Origin: an uncultured Clostridia bacterium
Lineage (GTDB): Bacteria; Bacillota; Clostridia; Christensenellales; CAG-917
Reading direction: 5' to 3'
NCBI GenBank assembly: GCA_947628255.1
Contig: CANQZE010000005.1
Coordinates: 1-32,076, forward strand
DNA length: 32,076 bases
Shown here piece by piece: positions 1-30,795 of this stretch; positions within the stretch are counted from its first letter, which is position 1; each line of letters begins with the position of its first letter. The notes under the pieces are model-generated. The model ran no database searches and had not been told where the DNA came from. It was given only the letters and a program-made list of their open reading frames with translations. Position numbers and translations under genes: made by a program.

Positions 1-1151
1 ATTCGGAAATTATCGTTTACATAAAGAGCGCGTTTGCACAAAGCGAGGCGACTTCCGCTTCAAAACGTATGAGGACATCTGTGCGTTTGAGAATGGAAAG
101 CGGGATGTATACTGTACCTACCGTAGCATACGGTTATAAAAAGGTCGGGGACGTATGGGAAATAAATGAAAGCGAGGCGAAAATCGTTCGTCAGAGCTTT
201 GAATGGTATTTGTCGGGATACGGCTCGTTAGCTATTGCAAACAAACTAAAAACTTTGTTTCCAAATGACTGTTGGAATAACACAAGGGTACGGTATATTC
301 TTTCAAACGAAAAATATATAGGCGATTGTAAATATCCAAAGGCAGTTACCGAATCGAATATTCCGCTAAAGACGGTGAGAAATGTGGGGCAATATCCTAT
401 GTTTTATGTGGAAAACACACACGCACCTATTATTGACGCAGAGGTTTTTGAAAAAGTACAACTTATATTGGCGGAGCGTAAAGAGCGAATATATCGTCCG
501 GCGGTGCATAATGAAAGCGTATTTGAGAAGAAAGTCTATTGCTCAAAATGCGGCTCAATATTCAGAAAGAAAAAGAGAAATGGCGAACTCTTTTGGACGT
601 GTATAAATAAAAATCGTATGGGCGGTGACTGTAAGTCGCTTATTTATTCAACGAAGGAACTGCAAAGAGCGTTTATCAAAATGTATAACATTCTCAAACA
701 AAATGCCCATGCCATTGTGGATGAATCCATTTCTCAATTAGTGGCGTTAAAAGCGAAATTGACATCGGTAAACCGAACTATTGCAAGTATTGATGCTGAA
801 ATAGCCTCTTCGCTTGAACAATTAAATCTCTATACCGATTTATACAATAGCGGCATAATAACAGAACTTATCTACATAGAAAAGCAAGCCAAATTCAAAA
901 AGCAACTGTTGGATTTGAGGGAGCGAAGAAACAAGGTATTAAACAAAGACGAACAGGAGCAATGTATTGAAAAATTGCGTGAACTTAAACGCTATTTGGA
1001 AAATTCGCCGCAATACTTATCGACAATGGATGATGAGATGTTTACGGAACTTGTAAGCAAGATTTATGCCGAACAGGATGGAGCATTGACTTTTGAATTG
1101 AAATGTGAACTGCGACTGTCCGTTTATATAAGAGGTGGGTATGAAAAATAG
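1..1151 (+). CDS. Large serine recombinase, 5' end outside window
   Basis: The frame is open from base 3 to the stop at 1149-1151 with no start that fits the family, so the gene begins left of the window. The visible protein opens at the end of the resolvase catalytic domain (a serine-rich SEATSASKR stretch equivalent to the usual AESENIS segment). It then has a Recombinase domain (PF07508 type, YGYKKV to about TRVRYILSNEKYIGDCKY), a zinc ribbon (CSKC ... C-x8-C, about 540-640) and a coiled-coil tail rich in Lys, Glu and Leu. Large serine recombinases cut and rejoin DNA at att sites of integrative elements. The first ATG in the frame (69) lies inside the conserved segment and is not the real start. 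The gene overlaps the next one by 11 bases. The catalytic serine cannot be checked here because it lies upstream. Confidence 0.88.
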   Translation, partial: SEIIVYIKSAFAQSEATSASKRMRTSVRLRMESGMYTVPTVAYGYKKVGDVWEINESEAKIVRQSFEWYLSGYGSLAIANKLKTLFPNDCWNNTRVRYILSNEKYIGDCKYPKAVTESNIPLKTVRNVGQYPMFYVENTHAPIIDAEVFEKVQLILAERKERIYRPAVHNESVFEKKVYCSKCGSIFRKKKRNGELFWTCINKNRMGGDCKSLIYSTKELQRAFIKMYNILKQNAHAIVDESISQLVALKAKLTSVNRTIASIDAEIASSLEQLNLYTDLYNSGIITELIYIEKQAKFKKQLLDLRERRNKVLNKDEQEQCIEKLRELKRYLENSPQYLSTMDDEMFTELVSKIYAEQDGALTFELKCELRLSVYIRGGYEK

Positions 1152-2013
1152 GATGCTACCATACGGATACATAATGACGAACGGTGATATAGTCGTTGAT
1201 GAAATTGAGGCGGAAATCGTTAATAATATCTTCCAAGCATATATCGACGGCGAATTTTTGAGTCAAATCGCGGAAGAACTCAAAGTACAAAGAGTGCCTT
1301 TTTTTGAGGGCAATTATGAATGGAACAAAAACAAAATCTATCGAATGATACAAGACACGCGATATACGGGGGCAAAGAACTATCCCATAATAGTAGACAA
1401 AGAACTTTTTGAACGGGCAAACAGGACAAAAGAGGAGAGAGGTTTTCAAGTAGATAAGTCATCGCCAACTATTGAGTGGATAAAACGAAATTTTTACTGC
1501 TACAAGTGCGGTAAAAAGTTGATAAGATACAAATATAGTGAGAGCGTAAGGTGGGCGTGCAAAAACGGCTGTGCATTTTACATCAAGGATGCAGACCTAT
1601 TAAACGGAATTAGAGGTGTCTTTGAAGATATAAGACGGGAGCCGTCATTGTTGCAAAACGATCATAGGGCGGATAATTATAGAATCACGCCCGACATTGC
1701 AAGACAGACTGCGGAGATAAACAGAGCCATCAATGGCGGTAATATGAGTTTTGAGATTGGCAAGAAACTTGTATTATCATGCGCTACGGTTAAGTTTGCG
1801 ACTTGCGAAGAAAACAGATTCGAGGCATACACGGATTATATTTTGGATATTGTTAAAAACACGGACGAAAAAGAATATTTGTCGCCTCGGTTTTTATCCG
1901 AAATTGTAACGCAAATTGCTGTTAAAAACGGAACTCACATCGTAGTAAGTTTAATCAATGGCTCAGTGGTGACAAAACTCATAGGAGGAGGTAATAATGC
2001 AAATACCAAATAA
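1141..2013 (+). CDS. Recombinase-domain protein lacking the catalytic resolvase domain
   Basis: 290 residues from ATG 1141 (AGAGG five bases upstream); a GTG at 1135 is possible but sits within the SD region. The protein starts directly at the Recombinase domain (MLPYGYIM, then YTGAKNYPIIVDKELFE) followed by a zinc ribbon (CYKC about residues 120-125 and CKNGC about 20 residues later) and a tail with little coiled coil. The roughly 150-residue N-terminal resolvase domain with the nucleophilic serine is absent. There is no room for it upstream because the preceding recombinase gene overlaps the start. It is therefore probably a non-catalytic partner that helps the flanking recombinases recognise or synapse DNA. 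That role is inference; loss of an ancestral catalytic domain is the alternative view of the same fact. Confidence 0.8.
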   Translation: MKNRMLPYGYIMTNGDIVVDEIEAEIVNNIFQAYIDGEFLSQIAEELKVQRVPFFEGNYEWNKNKIYRMIQDTRYTGAKNYPIIVDKELFERANRTKEERGFQVDKSSPTIEWIKRNFYCYKCGKKLIRYKYSESVRWACKNGCAFYIKDADLLNGIRGVFEDIRREPSLLQNDHRADNYRITPDIARQTAEINRAINGGNMSFEIGKKLVLSCATVKFATCEENRFEAYTDYILDIVKNTDEKEYLSPRFLSEIVTQIAVKNGTHIVVSLINGSVVTKLIGGGNNANTK

Positions 2014-3643
2014 AACGGGAACAGAGAAAATCATAACCAAAATTGATGCGAATCCAAATCTATCGTTAAAAAGCAGGGAAAACAGGATATTGAAAGTAGC
2101 GGCATATTGCAGAGTGTCTACGGACAGTGACGATCAATTAGAGAGTTATAAAGCGCAAATGTCATATTATACCGAAGCCATAGCCAAAAATCCGAAATGG
2201 CGTTTGGCGGGAATATATGCGGACGAGGGAATAACAGGTACAAGCACAAAGAAGAGAGAAGATTTTATGCGTATGATAAGGGACTGTGAAAAAGGGAAAA
2301 TAGACCTTATACTTACGAAATCGGTGGCGAGATTTGCGAGAAATACGGTAGATAGCTTGAACTATGTCCGCAAGCTGAAAGCTATGGGGATCGGAGTGTT
2401 CTTTGAGGAACAGAATTTGGATTCGCTCAAAGCAGACAGCGAAATGTTCATAGGACTTCACAGCGTAATGGCACAGGCTGAGAGCGAGAATATAAGCGCG
2501 AATGTTCGTTGGGGTATTCAACAGCGGATGAAAACGGGAACTTATGCGTTTAGATATAACATTTTGGGATATGTTAAGGGCGCGGACAGCAAACCTCAAA
2601 TCGTACCGGAACAAGCTGAAATTGTGCGTACTATTTATGACATGTATCTCGGCGGGGCGAGTATAGACCAAATCAAGACATTTCTTGAAAGCGAACATTA
2701 TCTTACTCTCCACGGCAAAAGCGAATGGAGCAGAGCGCTCATCAAAAACATCCTTGTGAATGAAAGATATTGCGGCGATTTACTCCTTCAAAAAACATAT
2801 GTGGAAAATTGCATAACCAAGAAAACGAAGAAAAATATGGGCGAACTACCGAAGTATCTCATAACGAACAATCATGAGCCTATTGTAACAAGAGAAGTGT
2901 TCAAAGCCGTTCAAGCTGAAATGGCGAGGAGAGCTAATAAGAGGAAGTCATCGGATTTTGCTATAACCGAAAACGGTAAATACAGCGGGAAATATGCTTT
3001 GACGGGTAAACTCATATGCGGTGAATGCGGCGGACAATATCGTCGCAAGATATGGACTTACAAAGGTGAGAAACGAGCCGTATGGAGATGTTTAAGCCGC
3101 ATTGAACACGGAAAGAAAGTGTGCCATAAATCACCTACGTTGGATGAGATTAAACTTAAAGAAGCTATAAACAGGGCATTCGGTAAGTGTTTGAAAGACG
3201 GGAATGACATAAAAAATCTGATACTATCAAATCTTTCATACGGCATAACGGGAACGCAAGACCCACTCGATATAGCGACAATGCAAAGACAACTGAACGC
3301 CCTTGACACCAAACTCGAAGAAACGGTGGTGCTGTCACAAAAGAGCGGCGGGGATCCGCAAAAGCTGATGAATGTAGTGAGCGAGTTGTGCAGGCAAATG
3401 ACGGTTTTGAGAGAAAGGATAGACGCGGCAAAGGCAAACGTGGAAGCGGATAGCAATTTGAATTTTGAAATAAAGCGCATAACCGAATTGTTGGAGAACA
3501 GCACGACAACCGAATTTGACGACAGTGCAATAAGGATGCTTGTTGAAGCGATAAGGGTAATGACGGACGGCAAAATACAAATAGAACTCAAAACAGGCGA
3601 AACGATAATAGAGGCGTTAGACCCGACCGACGATGAAATGTAA
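1997..3643 (+). CDS. Large serine recombinase (complete)
   Basis: 548 residues. ATG 1997 has a perfect AGGAGG at 1983-1988 and overlaps the previous stop by 17 bases, so the three recombinase genes form one coupled unit. Domains: resolvase catalytic domain at about residues 34-175, with AAYCRVSTDSDDQ placing the nucleophile at Ser41 and a conserved SVARFARN arginine segment; Recombinase domain at about 195-300 (LGYVKG, NERYCGDLLLQKTY); zinc ribbon at about 340-385 (CGECGG ... C); then a coiled-coil region to the end. Length and order match large serine integrases such as TndX/TnpX and CcrA/B. It lies at the end of its element, 190 bases from a tRNA pair, which fits a recombinase gene next to attR. 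Base composition is more AT-rich than the genes after 4.3 kb. Confidence 0.93.
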   Translation: MQIPNKTGTEKIITKIDANPNLSLKSRENRILKVAAYCRVSTDSDDQLESYKAQMSYYTEAIAKNPKWRLAGIYADEGITGTSTKKREDFMRMIRDCEKGKIDLILTKSVARFARNTVDSLNYVRKLKAMGIGVFFEEQNLDSLKADSEMFIGLHSVMAQAESENISANVRWGIQQRMKTGTYAFRYNILGYVKGADSKPQIVPEQAEIVRTIYDMYLGGASIDQIKTFLESEHYLTLHGKSEWSRALIKNILVNERYCGDLLLQKTYVENCITKKTKKNMGELPKYLITNNHEPIVTREVFKAVQAEMARRANKRKSSDFAITENGKYSGKYALTGKLICGECGGQYRRKIWTYKGEKRAVWRCLSRIEHGKKVCHKSPTLDEIKLKEAINRAFGKCLKDGNDIKNLILSNLSYGITGTQDPLDIATMQRQLNALDTKLEETVVLSQKSGGDPQKLMNVVSELCRQMTVLRERIDAAKANVEADSNLNFEIKRITELLENSTTTEFDDSAIRMLVEAIRVMTDGKIQIELKTGETIIEALDPTDDEM

Positions 3644-6629: not shown

Positions 6630-9137
6630 TTACCAGAGGTCGTCGTTTCGGACAATAGAGGCGCCTTGCGCGGCTCTTGCGATGGCGGCGATGCCTTTCT
6701 TGGCGGCGTCCTTGCTTGTGTAGCCGTCGTTGGTCGTCGCGACGATGTTGTTGTTTGAAGCCCTGAGTCTCAAGCGGAATTCGCCTTGGCTGTCCTCGTA
6801 GATCTCCCACTTTGGGAGCTTTTGCGGCACGGGATTTTTGAGCGTCTGATCCTCGATGGGAGCGGTGGCGGCGTTCTTGATGACGCTTTGGATGCCGACC
6901 TTGCACGACGATTGATCCTTGTAGGGCGCGCCTCCCGGGACGGCAAGGACCCTCTTGTTGGAAGAGAAGAGCTTGTAGGTGAAGTTGCCTTTGTCCGTCT
7001 TTTTGATGACGAATTTGCCGTGTTGTGGCAATGTCTCGTCCGCTTCTTGCAACACTTTTTCTTCTTCGCTTGGTTTTTGATTTTCCTTCTTTATGGACCC
7101 TTTCTTAGCCGCGGGCTTCTTGGCGGAGGGCTTATCCTCTGCGGGTTTCTGCTCCGAAGAGGCTTTCTTGGAAGCGGGCTTCTCGGCAGTGGGTTTTTCC
7201 TCTTCGGGAGTAGGCTCTTCCTCGACGAGGGGTTGATCTTCCTCAACGTCGGCAGTCACGTCCTCGGCGGGGACTTCCGCGGGTTGTTCGCTTGCGGGAG
7301 TCTCGGGTTGTGCGGGTTCATCGCTCTCTTTTGGAGTTTCCGTCTCTTCGGCTGTTTCCGTGAGAGAGGAGTCGTACTCTTCTTGTAGTTCCTCCGAGTA
7401 TTCATCCTCTTCTTCGAGTGTCTCATCGCTTGTCTCGTCGGCGTTGGATTCGGCAACGGTCGCGATGACAGAATCATCGGCGTCGGAGGCGGCTTCCTCC
7501 AAAATCTCTTCGGAGTCTGCATTTTCGGTTTGCGCGGCCTTTCTTGCCTCGGTCTCTTCGATCATTTTGGCGAGGGTGGTTTCGTCAAGTTTGCATTTTG
7601 ACTTGTAGATGAGGAGCGCGATCGTCATCAGCACCATTGGGATTATGCACATACAGGCGAGCAAGCCCATCTTGGTCTGAGGCGAAATGCCTTGGATCAG
7701 TTCGCCGACTTTGCCAACCAAGTCGTATTTTTGACCGGCGGCAGTTGCGGCGTTGGCCTTTCTTTCAAGAGCCGCGATGCCTTGAGTGCAGGCGAAAGCT
7801 CCCGTTGCGAGCAACACAAGCGAAACGATGCCTTGCGAAAGCGCGGATCCCATCTTGGCGGTGAAGGGGCGGAGCGAGAATATGATCGCCTCGTCGCGCT
7901 TGCCCGTCCTCCACTCGTTGTATTCGACGGTGTTTGTCATATTGATGAGCATAATCATATAGAATCCGCTTGCCCAACCGGTTATGCCATAGCACACCGC
8001 CATCACAAGGAATTTCGGCGTGATGTGCATACCTATGAGGTCAAAACCGCCGCCGACGTTGTTGGGCCAAGCAAGCCCGACGATGAGCAACAGCGCATAG
8101 CTGACGATGAGGCTGATCCCGCAACCGTACAGCGTTTTGTTGCGTCCGAGCTTTTTGGAGAACCACGGGTAGAACAGCGTGAACGTCACCGAAAGCACGG
8201 CATAAAGTATGCTGAACACAGTGCCCAGATTGCCTTCATAGCCAAATTCGAAATAGATGTAGAAAGAGAGCAGATTGCCTATCGCTATGCCCGACAGCAC
8301 CGACCAAAGCAACATAACAAGCGTACACCAAAGCAGTTGGTCGTTTTTGAAGAGGACCTTAAAAAGATCCTTGAACTTCATTCGGGAAGTCTTTTGGATA
8401 TTGGCGGGCAACGGCTTTTCCTTGACGCCGAGTATGGTGAAGAGTTGGAAGGACATCATCAACACGCTCACGGCGATCGACATTATGCCGTAGCCTCTGA
8501 CCGCTCCGCCAAACAACGCTTGGCTTATCGTCCCCACCGTGAACATAGGCACCAAAAGCCCCGCGAGTCCGCCGCCCGCGCTGACGACAAGCTGAGTGAA
8601 TGACGTCAGCTTGTTGCGGTCGTCGGGATTGGATGTAAGCGACGGCATCATCCCCCAATAGGAGATGTCGTTCATCGTGAACGTGATGGAGAACATAAAG
8701 TAGGCAAACGCGAGGAAACCTATGAATGCCCATCCGTCAAGCGGCACGTTGAACAGGGCAATTATCACGCCGCCAGTCAAAATCGCGCCGATGAGCTGCC
8801 ACGGCTTGTATTTGCCCCACTTTGTGCGCGTGTTTTCAACGATGGATCCCATAATTGGGTCGTTGAACGCGTCAAAAATGCGCGCCAACACGATTATGAC
8901 CGTGATCATAACGTATTGCGCCGGCGTAAGCGTCTTTGTGAAGGATACGAAAGACAGCAGATACCCGTTGAAAAAGTTGTAGAGAAAGTCTCTTCCGAAT
9001 GTCCCGAGCGGATACATTATCAAGTTGCGCTTCGACAACCGCTCGCCAACGCTCATCGCGTCGATCTCGCTCCCCGTCGCGGCGGACGCGACTTCGGCGG
9101 CGCTTTGAGCCTGAATGTCAAGATTTTGATCGTCCAT
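6630..9137 (-). CDS. GPH-family sugar:cation symporter fused to tandem DUF1508 domains
   Basis: 835 residues; ATG 9137 has GGGAGA nine bases upstream. Residues about 25-510 form a 12-helix glycoside-pentoside-hexuronide symporter (MelB type): IFDAFNDPIMGSIVENTRTK and WGKYKPW are the family signatures, with Asp residues placed for cation binding. Such proteins import glycosides with Na+ or H+. Residues about 525-705 are a long acidic, then Lys/Pro/Ala-rich linker. After it come two copies of the YegP/DUF1508 fold: about 707-757 (GKFVIKKTDKGNFTYKLFSS) and about 775-822 (WEIYEDSQGEFRLRLRASNN, then DGYTSKDAAKKGI). Usual GPH proteins are about 450-500 residues, so the extra 330 residues are exceptional. 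It has its own promoter and stands alone; the nearest glycosidase is the GH2 gene at 15.2 kb. Confidence 0.9.
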   Translation of the reverse strand: MDDQNLDIQAQSAAEVASAATGSEIDAMSVGERLSKRNLIMYPLGTFGRDFLYNFFNGYLLSFVSFTKTLTPAQYVMITVIIVLARIFDAFNDPIMGSIVENTRTKWGKYKPWQLIGAILTGGVIIALFNVPLDGWAFIGFLAFAYFMFSITFTMNDISYWGMMPSLTSNPDDRNKLTSFTQLVVSAGGGLAGLLVPMFTVGTISQALFGGAVRGYGIMSIAVSVLMMSFQLFTILGVKEKPLPANIQKTSRMKFKDLFKVLFKNDQLLWCTLVMLLWSVLSGIAIGNLLSFYIYFEFGYEGNLGTVFSILYAVLSVTFTLFYPWFSKKLGRNKTLYGCGISLIVSYALLLIVGLAWPNNVGGGFDLIGMHITPKFLVMAVCYGITGWASGFYMIMLINMTNTVEYNEWRTGKRDEAIIFSLRPFTAKMGSALSQGIVSLVLLATGAFACTQGIAALERKANAATAAGQKYDLVGKVGELIQGISPQTKMGLLACMCIIPMVLMTIALLIYKSKCKLDETTLAKMIEETEARKAAQTENADSEEILEEAASDADDSVIATVAESNADETSDETLEEEDEYSEELQEEYDSSLTETAEETETPKESDEPAQPETPASEQPAEVPAEDVTADVEEDQPLVEEEPTPEEEKPTAEKPASKKASSEQKPAEDKPSAKKPAAKKGSIKKENQKPSEEEKVLQEADETLPQHGKFVIKKTDKGNFTYKLFSSNKRVLAVPGGAPYKDQSSCKVGIQSVIKNAATAPIEDQTLKNPVPQKLPKWEIYEDSQGEFRLRLRASNNNIVATTNDGYTSKDAAKKGIAAIARAAQGASIVRNDDLW

Positions 9138-17811: not shown

Positions 17812-18783
17812 TTAGTTTTGCTCTTTATTGGTCGTTTGGTCTGCGCGGCAGTCCGACGCTTCGCTCTTCTTGGCCGGAACGCTTTCGTCGGGCTGAGAAG
17901 GGAAATCGTCTTCGCTCTGCTGTGACGTTTCCAAGGAGGGCGCGTCATTTTGCGCGTCGCTCTCGCATTTGTCGGCGGAGTCGGGCGCTTCAAAGGTCTC
18001 GTCCGTATCGGATACGGAGGACGCGTCCTCCGTGCGTGAGGAGCCAGCGCCCGCCAAAATCGCTTGAGCGCGTTCCGTTTCGCTTTCGGCGCGCTGTTTT
18101 TTCTTTTGCAAAGCGAAGCGTATCGCCGCAAACGCGCCGCACACCGCTATCCCCACAAACAGATATGCGGAGCCTATGCCCCCGCCCAAGCCCACAACGC
18201 CAAGCACGACGGACAACACGACGATGATGGCGGCGGGTATGAGCGCAAGTTTGGGATTTTTGGCGACGTATTTGCCGCCGAGCGAGCCGAACAACGCGTA
18301 CACGACGCAGGAGAAAGCCGGCAATATCCAATTGTTGCGAGTCACGGTTGCCTGCAGATTGGTGAAGGCGAGGCAAAGCACCAAGACGCCTATGATAACG
18401 ACGGTCACTAGCGTGCTTGTCGCGATCGCCAACGTTGACACGACCTCGTTTTCTTCCGAGCCGGGTTTTGTGCCGCAAATTTCCTGCGCCTTGACAACGC
18501 AGGGGATCTTGAGGTTGGACAGGTTGCCCGTGATGAAGGCGAGATATTCGCCGCTCACGCCGAGCATCGGCGCGTAAATGATGGGTTCGACAATGCCCGA
18601 CACAAAGTTGATGATCAGCGGGATCAGAACGGCGGATGTGCCGAAAACTCGCCAATCCGGAGTCACGTCGTAATAAAGCCCGATGGATACGGGGATCATA
18701 AGGAAGAGCAAGATCGCCAAAGCGGTCCATATCCTGCCGATGAGGTGGTATTTGAAGGAATAATCACGCGGAAGTTTTTTCAT
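17812..18783 (-). CDS. Membrane protein, partner of DUF5058 protein
   Basis: 323 residues from the ATG at 18783 with TAAGGAGGC before it; the frame is open further upstream, but only inside the DUF5058 gene. About six to seven membrane segments (residues about 16-250): RIWTALAILLFLMIPVSIGL, VFGTSAVLIPLIINFVSGIV, STLVTVVIIGVLVLCLAF and two more pairs. A loop with two Cys (IPCVVKAQEICGTKPGSEENE) lies between them. The last 75 residues are hydrophilic and rich in Glu, Ser and Asp, probably cytoplasmic. It begins ten bases after the DUF5058 stop. The close pair suggests a two-subunit membrane complex, possibly a transporter; no known transport family is recognised. Confidence 0.75.
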   Translation of the reverse strand: MKKLPRDYSFKYHLIGRIWTALAILLFLMIPVSIGLYYDVTPDWRVFGTSAVLIPLIINFVSGIVEPIIYAPMLGVSGEYLAFITGNLSNLKIPCVVKAQEICGTKPGSEENEVVSTLAIATSTLVTVVIIGVLVLCLAFTNLQATVTRNNWILPAFSCVVYALFGSLGGKYVAKNPKLALIPAAIIVVLSVVLGVVGLGGGIGSAYLFVGIAVCGAFAAIRFALQKKKQRAESETERAQAILAGAGSSRTEDASSVSDTDETFEAPDSADKCESDAQNDAPSLETSQQSEDDFPSQPDESVPAKKSEASDCRADQTTNKEQN

Positions 18784-18793
18784 ATTTGCCTCC

Positions 18794-19627
18794 TTAGACG
18801 AGCATTGCGGACGCCGCCGCTTCGACGGACGCAAGAGGCCAGCCGTTTTTTGTCGCGAAATAGCTTATCACGGCGACGGTCGCCATTGCGATCAGCATAG
18901 ATACGGGGGTCGCAAAACTGTCCAACCATTGCCACTTGAGCTTTGTGATCAGCAGGTCGCAGATGTACATCATCAACATGGCGACGATGACCGCGATGAA
19001 ATTGAAATAGGAATCCACATAGCCCGCGCCCGTCGCGACCGACGTGATGCTCATCGCGAGGTATCCCAGCACAAGGCCGATGAAGCACACCTGAAAGATG
19101 AGTTCGCCGAGGTTTACGCTGTTTTTGCCGACGCCCGCGTTCTTGCCCATAAGCGTGCCGAATTTCGGTTGCAGGCGGCGATAGAACACAAGCACCAATA
19201 TCGGTCCCGACATTATCGAGACAGTCATAACAGTGGATATTGTGACGAGATCTTTTGCCGTCATACCTCTCGACATAAGCCTTTGAAGGGAGCCTGCGAG
19301 CGCGGTCGCGGCGCCATCCGCCATCTGTGTCTCGTATTGCAAAGAACCTATGACGCTCAGTCGTATCGACGGAAAAGCGACTCCCAACGATCCGGCAAGA
19401 GTGATGATGCCGAGCGCAATACCTATCGCGGGCAAGATGGAGAAAGAGAGCGAGGAAGAGATCACTTTTTTGATTTTTTCGGCGCTCAGTCCCAACTTCT
19501 TTGCGCGGCGGATCGAGGCAACCATATAGAATGCGGCAAGCGCCACAACAAAGGCGAACACCGCGCCGTACAGCCCGAACATCAGAGGGGAATCGGGCGA
19601 AAATGAGTTCAGAAGGCTTTGAGTCAT
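18794..19627 (-). CDS. DUF5058 family membrane protein
   Basis: 277 residues; ATG 19627 with AAAGGAGT before it. The frame runs upstream to 19690 without another ribosome site. Seven to eight membrane segments. The pattern SAEKIKKVISSSLSFSILPAIGIALGIITLAGSLG, then IRLSVIGSLQYETQMADGAA, is typical of DUF5058 proteins of Clostridia (remembered, not searched). Their function is not established; they usually come with a second membrane protein, as here. It lies 81 bases after the sulfatase-maturase gene on the same strand, so the pair may serve sulfated-substrate metabolism, but that is inference only. Confidence 0.75.
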   Translation of the reverse strand: MTQSLLNSFSPDSPLMFGLYGAVFAFVVALAAFYMVASIRRAKKLGLSAEKIKKVISSSLSFSILPAIGIALGIITLAGSLGVAFPSIRLSVIGSLQYETQMADGAATALAGSLQRLMSRGMTAKDLVTISTVMTVSIMSGPILVLVFYRRLQPKFGTLMGKNAGVGKNSVNLGELIFQVCFIGLVLGYLAMSITSVATGAGYVDSYFNFIAVIVAMLMMYICDLLITKLKWQWLDSFATPVSMLIAMATVAVISYFATKNGWPLASVEAAASAMLV

Positions 19628-19658
19628 ACGTACTCCTTTTTTGTCGTTAAATTTTGCA

Positions 19659-19702
19659 AAACGGACTTTATGCGCTTCAAACAGCCGCATAAAACGCCGT
19701 TT
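19659..19702 (-). other. Strong hairpin between maturase and DUF5058 genes
   Basis: Two stacked stems: AAACGG/CCGTTT (19659-19664 with 19697-19702) and TTTATGCG/CGCATAAA (19667-19674 with 19686-19693), with an eleven-base loop. It begins six bases after the maturase stop. There is no T-run, so it may limit read-through or protect the upstream message. Confidence 0.55.
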
Positions 19703-20773: not shown

Positions 20774-22903
20774 CTATTTGATTATGCCGCGCCTGTTCGT
20801 GCGAAGTTCCTTGCGGAAGGCGAGCAACCTCTCTTTGAGCAGAAGCGCAACGTCGGGGTGCCTCTTCGACAGGTTGTAGCCCTCGATGGGGTCGTCGTCC
20901 AAATCAAAGAGGAAATTTTTGTAGTATTGATCGATGAAGGCGCTGTTCTCGTTGAGGACATTCTGATAATACTTGAAGTCGTGGAGTTCGCCGTCGATCT
21001 CCGCGGGCATTTGCAAACTTTGCACATTGCCTTTTTTGATGTAGTAGAGCGCGCGCATATTGCCTTCGCGGTCGAGGACTTTTGCGTCGGACGGAGTTGC
21101 GGCGGTGAGCGCGCCGAGCATACTGACGCCGTCTATCGTTCTGTCCGTCGGAAGCGGAATACCCATAAATTCGAGCAGAGTGGGGAAGATGTCTATGTTC
21201 ATATAGCTCGACGTGACGCGATATCCGCTTGCCGCCTCGCCATTGGAATTTGTCCAGCCGACTGGATCGTCCGTCGCGAAAGTCCTGCCGTCCGCCGTCC
21301 TGAGATTTTTGCCGATTTTGACGAGCATAGGCACTTTGTGGCCGCCTTCGAACGTCGTGTTTTTGCGCCCTTTCAGTGCGCCCGTCGCGCCTTCCTTGCC
21401 GGGACCGTTGTCCGACGTAAAGATGATTATCGTGTTGTCGGCGACTTCGGGATCGGAATAGATGAGTTCGAGCGTAGTGCCGAGATAGGCGTCAAACTCC
21501 TCGACGCAATCTATGTAGGTGTCGTCCGTGGTATCGCCCTGCACGGCGCCGTCCAAATTTGTTTGCGTCGTGTTGTAGCTTGAAAACAGAGGCGCGTGCG
21601 GCCAAGGAGTGCAATAGTATGAGAAGAAGGGAGTGCCGTTATTCTTGTAATCATCGATCTGGTCTTGTAGGTATTCGTTCATCTTTTCCGTGATGCGCTG
21701 TGTTGATTTGGATTGGTCCTTCATCTCGGCGTGCGAGAACACCTCGTGATATTGTCCGTTTTGCTCCTCGACAAAGTTGTAGGGCGTCATATCGTTGACA
21801 TAGTGGCTGCCGTAAAAATAGTCGAAACCTTGATTTGTTGGCAGATATTCGCCATAGTCGCCCAAATTCCACTTGCCGAACAGCGCGGTGGAGTAGCCTT
21901 GAGTTTTCAAAACTTCCGCGATCGTGATCTCGTCGCCCAAAATGCCGTCCACGTTGTAGAGGAATTGGAAGGGATTGAAATAGCGCGTGTTGCCGAACGG
22001 ATCGAGGGAAACGTTGGAGGGGAACACCACGTTGTCAAGATACCCGCGCGAGCAATATCTGCCCGTCAATATGCCGAAGCGAGACGGAGAACAGACAGGG
22101 GAAGAAGCATAAAAATTGTCGAAAAATACGCCGCCGTTTTCGGCGATCTTGTCTATGTTGGGCGTGAGTATGGACGGCGCCTTGCCCTCGTTGAGCAGGC
22201 TGGAGGAGTTGAGATAGCTGTACATCGAGATGTCCGCGTATCCCATATCGTCCATAAGTATGAACAAAATGTTGGGACGTTTTTGCCCGTTTTTGAGGGC
22301 GGCGAGAGATTCGAGATACTCATCGTGGCCGTCCTTGAGAGACTCGACCGTGGGCGTCGCCTTGAAGCTGCAACACAAAAAGTACAGCACGGTGACTCCA
22401 AGCATCAGCGCCGCGCACAGCGAAGCGACCAATCGTTTTGCCGTAAGTTTTTTGAGGCGTCTCAGGCATAACGCAAACGCCGCGAGCGCGATAGGAATGA
22501 GGGTGAACAACAGAGTATAGCCGAATCTTTCGGCGGCGTTGCCCGCTCCCCAAATGAAAAAGTAGAGCAACAGCGACGCGTCCGACAAGATGAAGCTCGC
22601 CGCCGTCCACACGCTCAAGCGTCCTCTGCACGCGCCGATGAATGTCGCGAGGGCAAACGCCATCGAAAACGCGATCGCGCAGACCGCAAGAAAGTTGAAG
22701 CCCGTCGCGAGCAACGTCAAGGCATATGCCGCCTCAACGCAGAACAGCGCGAAAGATACGCTTTTCAGCTTGTTTTCAATCGTAAATCCGCCCTTCGCGC
22801 GCGAAGCTCCGCTGCGGTTTGAAGCGGTTCCGTCCCCCGCTTCAGCAGAAGGCGCCGCGACGTCCTGTTCGACGGATTGCGATTTTATCTCCATATCATC
22901 CAT
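20774..22903 (-). CDS. Membrane-anchored Cys-type sulfatase
   Basis: 709 residues; ATG 22903 has GAGAGGAGT before it, while the frame continues upstream without a ribosome site. Residues 1-45 are a cytoplasmic, Ala/Ser/Gly-rich tail. About 46-190 hold five membrane helices (FALFCVEAAYALTLLATGF and others). The sulfatase domain runs from RPNILFILMDDMG (about 209) to the end, outside the cell. The metal ligands include Asp218/Asp219 and a SDNGPGKEG segment. The formylglycine motif CSPSR starts at Cys271, followed by FGILTGRY. The substrate is a sulfate ester, probably on host or plant glycans. Fusing five helices to an arylsulfatase recalls LtaS, which uses Thr rather than FGly. Operon with its maturase. 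Confidence 0.95.
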   Translation of the reverse strand: MDDMEIKSQSVEQDVAAPSAEAGDGTASNRSGASRAKGGFTIENKLKSVSFALFCVEAAYALTLLATGFNFLAVCAIAFSMAFALATFIGACRGRLSVWTAASFILSDASLLLYFFIWGAGNAAERFGYTLLFTLIPIALAAFALCLRRLKKLTAKRLVASLCAALMLGVTVLYFLCCSFKATPTVESLKDGHDEYLESLAALKNGQKRPNILFILMDDMGYADISMYSYLNSSSLLNEGKAPSILTPNIDKIAENGGVFFDNFYASSPVCSPSRFGILTGRYCSRGYLDNVVFPSNVSLDPFGNTRYFNPFQFLYNVDGILGDEITIAEVLKTQGYSTALFGKWNLGDYGEYLPTNQGFDYFYGSHYVNDMTPYNFVEEQNGQYHEVFSHAEMKDQSKSTQRITEKMNEYLQDQIDDYKNNGTPFFSYYCTPWPHAPLFSSYNTTQTNLDGAVQGDTTDDTYIDCVEEFDAYLGTTLELIYSDPEVADNTIIIFTSDNGPGKEGATGALKGRKNTTFEGGHKVPMLVKIGKNLRTADGRTFATDDPVGWTNSNGEAASGYRVTSSYMNIDIFPTLLEFMGIPLPTDRTIDGVSMLGALTAATPSDAKVLDREGNMRALYYIKKGNVQSLQMPAEIDGELHDFKYYQNVLNENSAFIDQYYKNFLFDLDDDPIEGYNLSKRHPDVALLLKERLLAFRKELRTNRRGIIK

Positions 22904-22933
22904 AATACTCCTCTCAAAATAGCTAATATAATA

Positions 22934-26725: not shown

Positions 26726-26842
26726 TTTAGTACTCATAATCGTATTTACGCGCACGAATCTTCCTTGAGAATGATAAGCGAATGATCGCAATTTATGCGC
26801 ACTAAAACGTCTGTGTATCCCGAATTTCAGGAGGGCTTGAAA

Positions 26843-28525
26843 ATGATGAAAAAAAAGATATTGACAATATTGTGCGTCGCGCTTTTGCTCGCGGCGTCGG
26901 CGCTTGCTCTTGCGGCGTGCGATGAGACGGAATATAGCGTCATCAAATTCGACGCGCAAGGCGGGACCGCCATACAGCAGATTTTGGCAAAAGAGGGCGA
27001 GAAGATCATCGCTCCCGCAGATCCGACGCGAAGCGGATATGAATTTGTGGGCTGGGCTTTGTCCGCGGACGGCGAGCGCGTGGATTTCCCCGAAAATATG
27101 CCCAAGGGCGAGACGACCTATTTTGCGCTGTGGAAGGCGGAGACTCCCGCGCAACCTGACAACAAAGTCGCCTACAGGATCGAATATCATCTCGAAAACT
27201 TTGACGGAGACGATTTTCCCATCGACAACGAGCGCACGATCTTTGCGGAGGGCGAATCGGGTCAAAGCGTGTCGGTCACCGCGCCCATCATCGAGTATAT
27301 GCAATTTGACGAGAACAGATCCACTCCGTTGACTATGACGCTCGGAGAGGGCGACAACGTTTTCAGACTGTATTACGCAAGGACGATCTACAGGCTTTTG
27401 CTCAGCGAGGGCGATTCCAATCCGGGAGAGACGGAGCTGAACGCGAAGTTCGAGCATACCGTCGCGCTTCCGGACGCGGATTACGAGTCAAACGGCAAGC
27501 TGTTTATAGGTTGGGCTGACAATGAGAACGCGGCGCGCGAAGATATCCTGCTGCCGGGAGAGGAGATCGAACTCACCCAAAACAAGCTGTTGTACGCTCA
27601 GTACGGCACGGCGTATGATGGGATGTTCGACTCGCTCGGGCAGGTTGCGCTCAGCGCTCCCGACGCAGACGGAAATTGCATCGCGCTGTACATTGCTCCC
27701 GACGGAACTCGCGAATGGGGCGAGGCGAGCGGCGACGCGAAAGGATGCCGCATACAGACGCAAAATTTCAAAGGCATATTCGGCGCGTCCAAGCTGTTCA
27801 GAAAGGACGAGACGGGCAAATACATCGGCTACAGCTTGCTCAACGACGCTTGCGATGAAAAATACGGCACGCTGGAACTCGACGCGGCGGAAATGACCGC
27901 CGTCTACACAGTTGGCGACAGCGTGAAGAGCGGCAGCTACAGCTTTTTGACGGACAGCGACGGATACACGGGCGAGATGCTCCTCACAAGCGGGAGCGAT
28001 CGCGTCAATTTCAGATTTGCGGACGGGCAATTTGAAGGCGACTTTGTCGGCAGTTTCATCGTCAAGGGCGAAGAAGCGGGGAGATACAAAGTGATGTCCG
28101 ACATCACGTCGCTCAGCGTCGAGGACCTCTATGAGGTGGAACTTGACGGCTACGGCAGATTGTCCTTCCCCATCAGTATGCTCGGTTTGGCGCTCGCCTA
28201 TGGCGAATACAAGGGCTTGGACGCCGCAAAGGGCATTTGGCAGTTCAAATTTGTGGGATTTATCATCGAAGATATTTCCGACACTATCTATATGAGCGGC
28301 GGCTATCGCGATTGCAATTTCATATTGAAGACCGCCGTCAAGAGCATTTTCGGCTCGCAGGTGGACAGCTATCCCGTGTTCATCCCCGCGCGGGAGATCC
28401 GCGCAGGCTACGTCCGCGAACTCGATAAATACGTCGGCAAGAAGCTGCGCCTCAAAGTGCAGAAGCCCGAAGATATCCGCATAACGCGCAAGAAGGATTT
28501 TATATGGCGGAAGGCTCCGTCGTGA
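26843..28525 (+). CDS. Large lipoprotein with Listeria-Bacteroides repeats (5' part of a frameshifted gene)
   Basis: 560 residues from ATG 26843, eight bases after AGGAGG. Residues 1-25 are a lipoprotein signal (LTILCVALLLAASALALAAC), with a Cys at the end of the lipobox. About 30-95 are a Listeria-Bacteroides (InlB B-type, Flg_new) repeat, ending FVGWALSADGERVDFPENM ... TYFALW. A degenerate second copy follows at about 185-250 (KLFIGWADNENAAREDI). After that come beta-strand modules with the motif (E)LDGYGRLSF. The frame stops at 28523-28525, but the protein clearly continues in the next frame (see the 28504 entry). Surface-exposed; probably binds or adheres to a partner outside the cell. 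Confidence 0.85.
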   Translation: MMKKKILTILCVALLLAASALALAACDETEYSVIKFDAQGGTAIQQILAKEGEKIIAPADPTRSGYEFVGWALSADGERVDFPENMPKGETTYFALWKAETPAQPDNKVAYRIEYHLENFDGDDFPIDNERTIFAEGESGQSVSVTAPIIEYMQFDENRSTPLTMTLGEGDNVFRLYYARTIYRLLLSEGDSNPGETELNAKFEHTVALPDADYESNGKLFIGWADNENAAREDILLPGEEIELTQNKLLYAQYGTAYDGMFDSLGQVALSAPDADGNCIALYIAPDGTREWGEASGDAKGCRIQTQNFKGIFGASKLFRKDETGKYIGYSLLNDACDEKYGTLELDAAEMTAVYTVGDSVKSGSYSFLTDSDGYTGEMLLTSGSDRVNFRFADGQFEGDFVGSFIVKGEEAGRYKVMSDITSLSVEDLYEVELDGYGRLSFPISMLGLALAYGEYKGLDAAKGIWQFKFVGFIIEDISDTIYMSGGYRDCNFILKTAVKSIFGSQVDSYPVFIPAREIRAGYVRELDKYVGKKLRLKVQKPEDIRITRKKDFIWRKAPS

Positions 28526-30795
28526 AGTTTTCCTCGGCGGGTAATATGAGATATTTCGATATTGACGCGGACAAATCTTCATTCAAAGAGGTCGACGCGT
28601 CCGCGGGCAGCTATCAACTCGGCGATTTCGAGGTGTGGCTGAGCGGCATATATCCCGCGCAAAAAACGGGCAGTATGAGGGTGAGCCACGGCGGCAGGCT
28701 TATCGCGGAAGGCGCCTATTGGCAGACCGTCGAAGGTGATTTCGAGTTTGATCCCGTCTGGGTGGACTTCCTGTATCCTATGATAAACGGCATAGCGGTG
28801 GGCAAATTCAACTTCAAAATAGAGGAAGGCGACATTTTGATGCGCAACGACGCGCTCTACGGCGATTTCGAGTTTACGGACGGCTCCATACTTTCCTTTG
28901 ACGGCTACGGCAACGCGACGCTGGAAGGCAGGACTGTCAAAGTCGGTACGCGCATTTCAAACACCGTGTTGCTGGACGGTCAAGGCTATGTTCTTAATCC
29001 CGGCGCGCGCTCCGTCGAGAAGGCGAGCGGACTTTCGGGCGAGTATTTCACCGCTGTGGACGAATACATCGGTCCCGGCAAGCTCGCGTTTGACGGCAAC
29101 GGCGTCGCTTTGTTCTACAATATGACAAAGGGCGTGCTGTGCGGGCAGGGCAGCTACACCTATGACGAGGCGAGCGGCGTCGGCGAATTTATTCCCGAGC
29201 CGAACGAGGAGTTTCCCGTCGAGGGGTTCCGATTTATTCTGACTTCCGCCTATGACCAATATGGGCTGTACTATGAGAATGTATATTTCAAATATCACGA
29301 TGAGAGCCACATCAAAAAAGATATCGACGGAGGCTCGAGTTTTGAGCTGAGCGGATACGGTTATATGACCGACAACTATTCCGATCCCGCGTCGGGCGTG
29401 TATGAGCTGACTTTCTTCGGCGAAGGCGCTACATACGACAACGACAAAAAAAATCTGCATCTGACGGGCGGCAGCTACATCATACACTTCGTCAATGTGC
29501 AGGCGCAGGCCGTGGACGGAATGTTGCAATACAGGATCCCCTTAAATCCGGATATGACCATACAGCTGACCTTCGGCAACACCGTGATAGGTGTGACGGT
29601 CAAGGACGGCAAAGCGGAAGAGGCCAGCGCCGAGACAGGCACCTATTACGGCTATTCTTATGAGTCCAATTTGAGCAACCCCGAAATGCGCATTACGCTT
29701 GACGGGGCGGGCAAAGCGACATACGTAAGCACGCACGCCGGTTATCTCGGTACGATTGAGTTTTCCGCCGAGACCGTCAGCGGCACCTACACCGTCAACG
29801 GCGAGGTGATTACGTTTGTACCCAACGACGGCGCCTTCGTGATGGGGATGGCTCAGCTTGTTTTCAAACTTGTCACATTTGAGACGGATTCCGGCACGGT
29901 CACGCTCTTCCATGTCAGTGACGTCAACGGCAGAGAAATGTCTCTTGAGGGCAGCGACGGATCAAAACTCGAAGTGAACGGCTTTGGGGACGTCGTGTAC
30001 ACTCCCGCGGGAGGCGAACCTCTCAAAGCGGATTGCCTGCAGGCAAACACTTTCGTGGAAAAGGTTGAAATTGTCCCCGGCGTCGACGAAAAAGACAAAA
30101 CCACAACCACGGATATAAAACAACAAAGGCTCATCGCGAGATTCGACGACGGAGCAACGCGTATGTTCTCCTATGACAAAGAGAAGAAGAGCTTTGAGGA
30201 AATCGGCATCGAAGCGCGCGAGTACAAGCTCTATGACGGCAAAGGAGGCAGCGACAACGGCACTTTGATCCTCCTCGACGGAAAGGGAGGCGCAAAACTT
30301 TGTTGCACGATAGATGTGCAAAATCTCTTTGTGACACAGTTGCCGATCGTCGCGACGGTGGCGAGCGCCAAATACGAGATAGATCCCGACGACAAAAACA
30401 CAGTGTGGCTATCGGATATCGTTGTGGATGAAAAATATAAGGACAAATACACTCTCCCGAAGAGCGATTTCGGCATAGTCCTCGGCTCGGTGGTGGGCAG
30501 AGGGGACAACACGGATTATGTTTTTGCCCTTGAAGAGGGCTTCAACAAGGTCTACTCCACGGCGGACGGCAAGACTGTCACGGTGAACGGCTTCAACAAC
30601 ATCACGGTGAGCGGTTTCGAGAACATCACGTCAAGCTATGTGATCACCTTCGAGAAGCGCACGATTGCGTCAAAGAGCGTGTACGTGCTGACGTTGAGAA
30701 GCGGCAATGGCAGGTGGACGTATGTGCATTACTTCACGCTCGGCGAGGACGGTTCCACTCTGACCGAGATCCTCGTCGACCTCGCGATCAACTGA
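28504..30795 (+). CDS. 3' part of the repeat lipoprotein, in the -1 frame
   Basis: 763 residues counted from ATG 28504; AAGGA lies six bases before it, so internal initiation cannot be excluded. There is no signal peptide, and the protein is a string of beta-rich modules. The same motif as in the 5' part recurs: LSFDGYGNATLEG, LAFDGNGVALFYN, ITLDGAGKATYVS, LEVNGFGDVVYTP, ILLDGKGGAKLCC. This shared motif, the 22-base overlap and the missing export signal indicate one protein of about 1,320 residues split by a frameshift (natural mutation, programmed event or assembly error). The region before 28504 is open in this frame too, so the exact shift point is not visible. No stop codon lies inside. 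Confidence 0.8.
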   Translation: MAEGSVVKFSSAGNMRYFDIDADKSSFKEVDASAGSYQLGDFEVWLSGIYPAQKTGSMRVSHGGRLIAEGAYWQTVEGDFEFDPVWVDFLYPMINGIAVGKFNFKIEEGDILMRNDALYGDFEFTDGSILSFDGYGNATLEGRTVKVGTRISNTVLLDGQGYVLNPGARSVEKASGLSGEYFTAVDEYIGPGKLAFDGNGVALFYNMTKGVLCGQGSYTYDEASGVGEFIPEPNEEFPVEGFRFILTSAYDQYGLYYENVYFKYHDESHIKKDIDGGSSFELSGYGYMTDNYSDPASGVYELTFFGEGATYDNDKKNLHLTGGSYIIHFVNVQAQAVDGMLQYRIPLNPDMTIQLTFGNTVIGVTVKDGKAEEASAETGTYYGYSYESNLSNPEMRITLDGAGKATYVSTHAGYLGTIEFSAETVSGTYTVNGEVITFVPNDGAFVMGMAQLVFKLVTFETDSGTVTLFHVSDVNGREMSLEGSDGSKLEVNGFGDVVYTPAGGEPLKADCLQANTFVEKVEIVPGVDEKDKTTTTDIKQQRLIARFDDGATRMFSYDKEKKSFEEIGIEAREYKLYDGKGGSDNGTLILLDGKGGAKLCCTIDVQNLFVTQLPIVATVASAKYEIDPDDKNTVWLSDIVVDEKYKDKYTLPKSDFGIVLGSVVGRGDNTDYVFALEEGFNKVYSTADGKTVTVNGFNNITVSGFENITSSYVITFEKRTIASKSVYVLTLRSGNGRWTYVHYFTLGEDGSTLTEILVDLAIN

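Follow-up and report, generated by a model that had tools for sequence, protein, structure and literature searches.

The gene at positions 20774–22903 of this window, the 32,076-nucleotide stretch of Clostridia DNA that was analysed, raises the question of whether formylglycine (FGly) chemistry can be carried on a polytopic membrane anchor and, if so, what kind of enzyme results. The sequence-only reading had proposed a Cys-type sulfatase on an LtaS-like anchor. Reading of the open reading frame confirmed its coordinates and its CSPSR motif, with Cys271 opening residues 271–275. The minus-strand frame encodes 709 amino acids, comprising a PF00884 sulfatase domain preceded by five N-terminal membrane helices; it starts with ATG at 22903 behind a GAGGAG ribosome site at 22913–22908 and stops at 20774–20776 (Table 1). 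We consider it likely that the protein is a membrane-tethered, outward-facing FGly sulfatase served by a dedicated anaerobic sulfatase-maturating enzyme (anSME). What is new is the pairing of predicted S1-type FGly chemistry with an anchor of five helices that matches no named family, together with a derived substitution in the active site. We found no description of polytopic FGly sulfatases in the literature searched, which covered only a minority of subscription journals.

Table 1. Features of the sulfatase locus, numbered from the first position of the window
Feature	Position	Strand	Basis
Membrane-anchored FGly-type sulfatase, 709 aa	20774..22903	-	ORF; PF00884 4e-45; ATG + GAGGAG ribosome site
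N-terminal tail, residues 1-48, predicted cytoplasmic, low confidence/disordered	22760..22903	-	AlphaFold pLDDT about 40 over residues 1-38; basic residues immediately before helix 1
Five-helix membrane domain, residues 49-177	22373..22759	-	Hydropathy; AlphaFold2 (whole protein and domain alone); positive-inside pattern over 60 homologues
GHDxYL signature, linker helix after TM5, residues 192-197	22313..22330	-	G, D, Y, L invariant in A2 and A4 alignments
S1-type sulfatase catalytic domain, residues about 205-705, predicted extracellular	20789..22291	-	PF00884 210-582; Foldseek ARSA 1e2s 7.7e-28
CSPSR formylglycine motif, Cys271-Arg275	22079..22093	-	Cys and Arg invariant in 60/60 clade members
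K344-W-N346, GKWNLG for canonical GKWHLG	21866..21874	-	Asn in place of elimination-base His; N in 35/35 of one subclade
His391	21731..21733	-	35/35 in Asn346 subclade
Anaerobic sulfatase-maturating enzyme (radical SAM/SPASM), 353 aa	19709..20770	-	NF010321 1.2e-100; TIGR03942 2e-93; PDB 4k37 9.7e-80; CxxxCxxC + VYPCDFY

The identity of the sulfatase domain is beyond doubt. Its PF00884 match scored 154.9 bits against a gathering score of 25, and its nearest solved relatives were GALNS, ARSA and STS, with PMH far behind; no NCBIfam equivalog model was passed by the protein. The S1 FGly sulfatases, including ARSA, GALNS and the bacterial carbohydrate sulfatases, have the same fold, CxPxR motif, metal ligands, Lys/His/Lys active site and activation by a maturase. 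Those sampled were soluble or had a single N-terminal hydrophobic segment, whereas the window protein has five helices and an Asn in place of the GKWHLG His. D218, D219, C271, R275, K344, H436, D498, N499 and K514 were invariant in all 60 members of its clade. Nine of the ten catalytic positions tested were kept, the GKWHLG His (Asn346 here) being the one lost, and the protein was filed as a variant S1 sulfatase, this His being usual in S1 sulfatases but not an established strict requirement for membership.

Topology prediction gave five N-terminal helices, as the sequence-only reading had claimed. Hydropathy identified segments at 49–67, 71–89, 101–119, 129–147 and 158–176, and the AlphaFold2 model of the whole protein (mean pLDDT 80.8) placed helices at 49–67, 70–92, 98–118, 123–146 and 155–177, with pLDDT for helices 4 and 5 of about 55–66 in the full-length model and about 67–81 when the domain was modelled alone. 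Averaged over 60 homologues, the K+R count per loop segment alternated (3.1 in, 0.3 out, 2.5 in, 1.7 out, 4.0 in), and this positive-charge pattern together with the structure model supports a predicted N-in/C-out topology. A search for the same architecture found the five-helix layout with a CxPS/AR motif in 60 homologues, and with this recurrence it is not a chance arrangement. Fewer helices, or a cleaved signal peptide alone, which that reading had named as its refutation, is contradicted by the five segments present in nearly all full-length homologues examined. The membrane domain of these homologues has conserved Asn70, Arg126 and Pro137; it matched no Pfam family, and a fold search against the PDB gave no significant match (best E 0.55).

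Kinship of this anchor with LtaS fared less well than the layout itself. In LtaS, LtaP and further Thr-type membrane enzymes within the alkaline phosphatase superfamily, five helices at the N terminus likewise precede a sulfatase-fold domain that lies outside, a layout described for LtaS-type enzymes in PMC4192460. However, comparison of the two membrane domains detected no homology (hhalign probability 0.4% over 25 columns), and the LtaS/LtaP type uses a Thr nucleophile (GGNTSDAEF in the class sample) and lacks an FGly motif, in contrast to Cys271 of the window protein. The catalytic domains of the two types are related (profile comparison 99.6%), that of the window protein being nearest to S1 sulfatases rather than to LtaS. 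Because the membrane domains are not detectably related and that of the window protein gave no significant fold match, we favor a convergent origin of the shared layout; membrane domains diverge quickly, so distant homology to the LtaS anchor could escape detection. The departure of an FGly motif on a polytopic fold from the usual pattern was borne out in 118 genomes of the class, where, in the subset of matches read, the polytopic PF00884 proteins examined were without CxPxR and the CxPxR sulfatases examined were without a polytopic anchor. FGly combined with membrane helices does have a eukaryotic precedent in human steroid sulfatase (PDB 8eg3, 1p49), the best profile match to the window protein, which differs in having no five-helix N-terminal domain. 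In steroid sulfatase the membrane helices are internal to the chain, and FGE generates its FGly in the ER.

The fusion appears to have a single origin and a narrow distribution. In a tree of 105 rows, the 60 five-helix proteins grouped as a single clade (SH-aLRT 100), separate from the soluble sulfatases, which were represented by the 45 nearest; the tree was quick, with long branches between groups, and the soluble set was chosen by similarity. Among 396 genomes of the order, about 50 were matched by a profile of the membrane domain; the frames concerned had the size of a sulfatase except for two marginal matches (8e-4), and all 35 loci fetched from outside the family encoded CxPSR or CxPAR together with four to six predicted hydrophobic helices. 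The same profile matched only the window's own genome in the class sample (391 genomes), and the phylum sample (399 genomes) held no other true match; one further phylum hit (G818, 4e-4) reads as a CcmF-like protein and was set aside as a chance match. The related contigs are mostly from uncultured Clostridia; many trace to isolates with the label Lapin (rabbit), others to gut samples. A neighboring genus has soluble sulfatases whose motif reads CAPYR (L115, L117–L120).

Two features had gone unmentioned in the sequence-only reading: Asn346 and an anSME gene that begins 3 nt past the sulfatase stop. The encoded protein has a radical SAM domain (PF04055) and a SPASM domain (PF13186) and aligned with Clostridium perfringens anSME (4k37) over residues 3–333, sharing its radical SAM and SPASM cysteines and its CDFY; domains and similarity together place it among the anSMEs. 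It scored below the curated NCBIfam equivalog cut-offs (337 of 441 bits and 313 of 349 bits), and is, by sequence, a diverged member of the family. The source genome, which is 86% complete so that absences in it are soft, contained no second PF00884 protein and no second anSME of comparable score. Strong sulfatase matches were found in 22 of the 43 genomes of the family, and in every one of these anSME was matched strongly too (190 bits or more), including one whose only sulfatase is soluble, of the CAPYR type, and whose anSME lies elsewhere in the genome (G026). Conversely, anSME was missing from 20 of the 21 genomes lacking the sulfatase, the exception (G038) being 64% complete.

Most likely, sulfatase and maturase belong to a single operon. 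Among 55 loci measured, the two genes overlapped by 1–4 nt in 12 and lay within 60 nt in 35 more, start codons having been picked by rule so that individual distances may be off. The clearest exception to the pairing has its anSME on a separate contig, but there the sulfatase is at a contig end (G007). Some relatives have two tandem copies of the five-helix sulfatase ahead of a single anSME (for example L040 1247–5636 and L041 1955–6317). Since anSME adjoins the sulfatase and is inherited with it, conversion of Cys271 to formylglycine is very likely.

No glycan-degradation operon surrounds the pair, and conserved neighbors are limited to close relatives, which have a divergent FAD oxidoreductase and, in some, a SpoIVA-like gene nearby. 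In the window, a DUF5058 membrane protein and then another membrane protein are encoded immediately downstream of anSME (17812–19690, minus strand). Elsewhere in the window are three tandem large serine recombinase genes (69–3643, plus strand), the first two having Recombinase domains without a Resolvase match and only the third matching the Resolvase catalytic domain; an unusual fusion of a MelB-type sugar symporter (TIGR00792) with a long acidic, proline-rich linker and C-terminal DUF1508 domains (6630–9137, minus strand); and two overlapping frames (26795–30795, plus strand) that probably encode large surface proteins, Listeria-Bacteroides repeats being present in the first; a frameshift may have divided what was a single gene.

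The change at position 346 is a point against ordinary sulfate hydrolysis. Asn occupies this position in 35 clade members, the window protein among them, and His in the other 25 and in all 45 soluble relatives; a single change from His to Asn on the tree accounts for this pattern. The spacing of Lys344-x-Asn346 matches that of Lys113 and His115 in AtsA. His391, which precedes a long helix (397–422), is invariant in the Asn346 subclade; T, G or A is common here among His346 members and E or Q in soluble relatives, and one His346-type protein (L198) apparently also has His. The residue taken to act as elimination base in S1 sulfatases is, in AtsA, His115 (PMC5066984). With Asn346 replacing this presumed base, slow turnover or altered chemistry is possible, and we hypothesize from the conservation pattern that His391 could replace it.

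One consequence of a lost base could be that the FGly-sulfate or -phosphate intermediate lasts long enough for transfer to a membrane-located acceptor, much as LtaS hands on glycerophosphate from its Thr, making the enzyme a transferase rather than a hydrolase. The one-time His-to-Asn change fixed in 35 proteins, the LtaS-like layout and the lack of degradation genes around the pair all fit such a role, as does the need of LtaS-type enzymes for their membrane domain (PMC4192460). We nevertheless think it improbable: the anchor shows no detectable homology to that of LtaS, sister members with the same anchor retain His, the remaining residues for sulfate hydrolysis are intact, and His391 could assume the lost role. 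Slightly longer odds still attach to the specific proposal that the Asn346 subclade would be an FGly-based, membrane-embedded sulfo- (or phospho-) transferase with slow hydrolysis and a convergent LtaS layout.

FGly is also used by phosphonate monoester hydrolases (PMH), in which the position equivalent to 346 is not as in sulfatases. The PehA model was weakly matched by the window protein, which might be an FGly-class phosphodiesterase or phosphonate hydrolase; this too seems unlikely given that PMH ranks far behind the nearest solved relatives and given a fourth metal ligand, Asn499, that is as in classical sulfatases and not the His of PMH (PMC12421950). Loss of a catalytic His could also mark a decaying or structural pseudo-sulfatase, but this is very unlikely in view of the invariance of the other active-site residues tested, a frame intact in dozens of species and a maturase retained alongside. 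Least credible is that the protein is a conventional exported sulfatase, its signal region long and its helices over-called, a reading that the modest pLDDT of helices 4 and 5 in the full model might invite but that is opposed by the five segments with their conserved residues and alternating charge, and by a 45-residue tail and four further helices unlike a cleaved signal peptide.

For the membrane-tethered sulfatase, we propose that the cytoplasmic radical SAM anSME would oxidise Cys271 of the nascent or still unfolded protein to formylglycine, and that the five helices would insert N-in/C-out, as the sequence pattern and the model suggest, leaving the catalytic domain on the outer face of the membrane. 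There it may remove sulfate from a small sulfated compound, possibly a host or diet glycan fragment, a steroid or a phenol, while the tether would hold enzyme and product at the surface of a cell presumed to be without a closed periplasm. The gain would most likely be the desulfated organic part, or sulfate removal itself, rather than sulfur. ATP sulfurylase was found in none of the 43 family genomes and PAPS reductase in two, weakly, so released sulfate would probably not enter the standard assimilation route, and sulfur scavenging is an unlikely purpose.

The sequence-only reading had also asked how maturation is timed against insertion. That is a genuine question, though one that this protein shares with every exported anSME substrate; FGly is made cotranslationally, according to a review (PMC10154612). 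By forcing membrane insertion, the anchor probably shortens the time in which anSME can act, and the tight coupling of the two genes is consistent with such a short time. A polytopic substrate with a co-encoded maturase would offer a natural system for the timing of anSME action relative to membrane insertion. The fixed His-to-Asn change would likewise put to the test how elimination is currently held to proceed in sulfatases. More broadly, the findings suggest that the layout of five helices and a sulfatase fold arose more than once, with two different nucleophiles.
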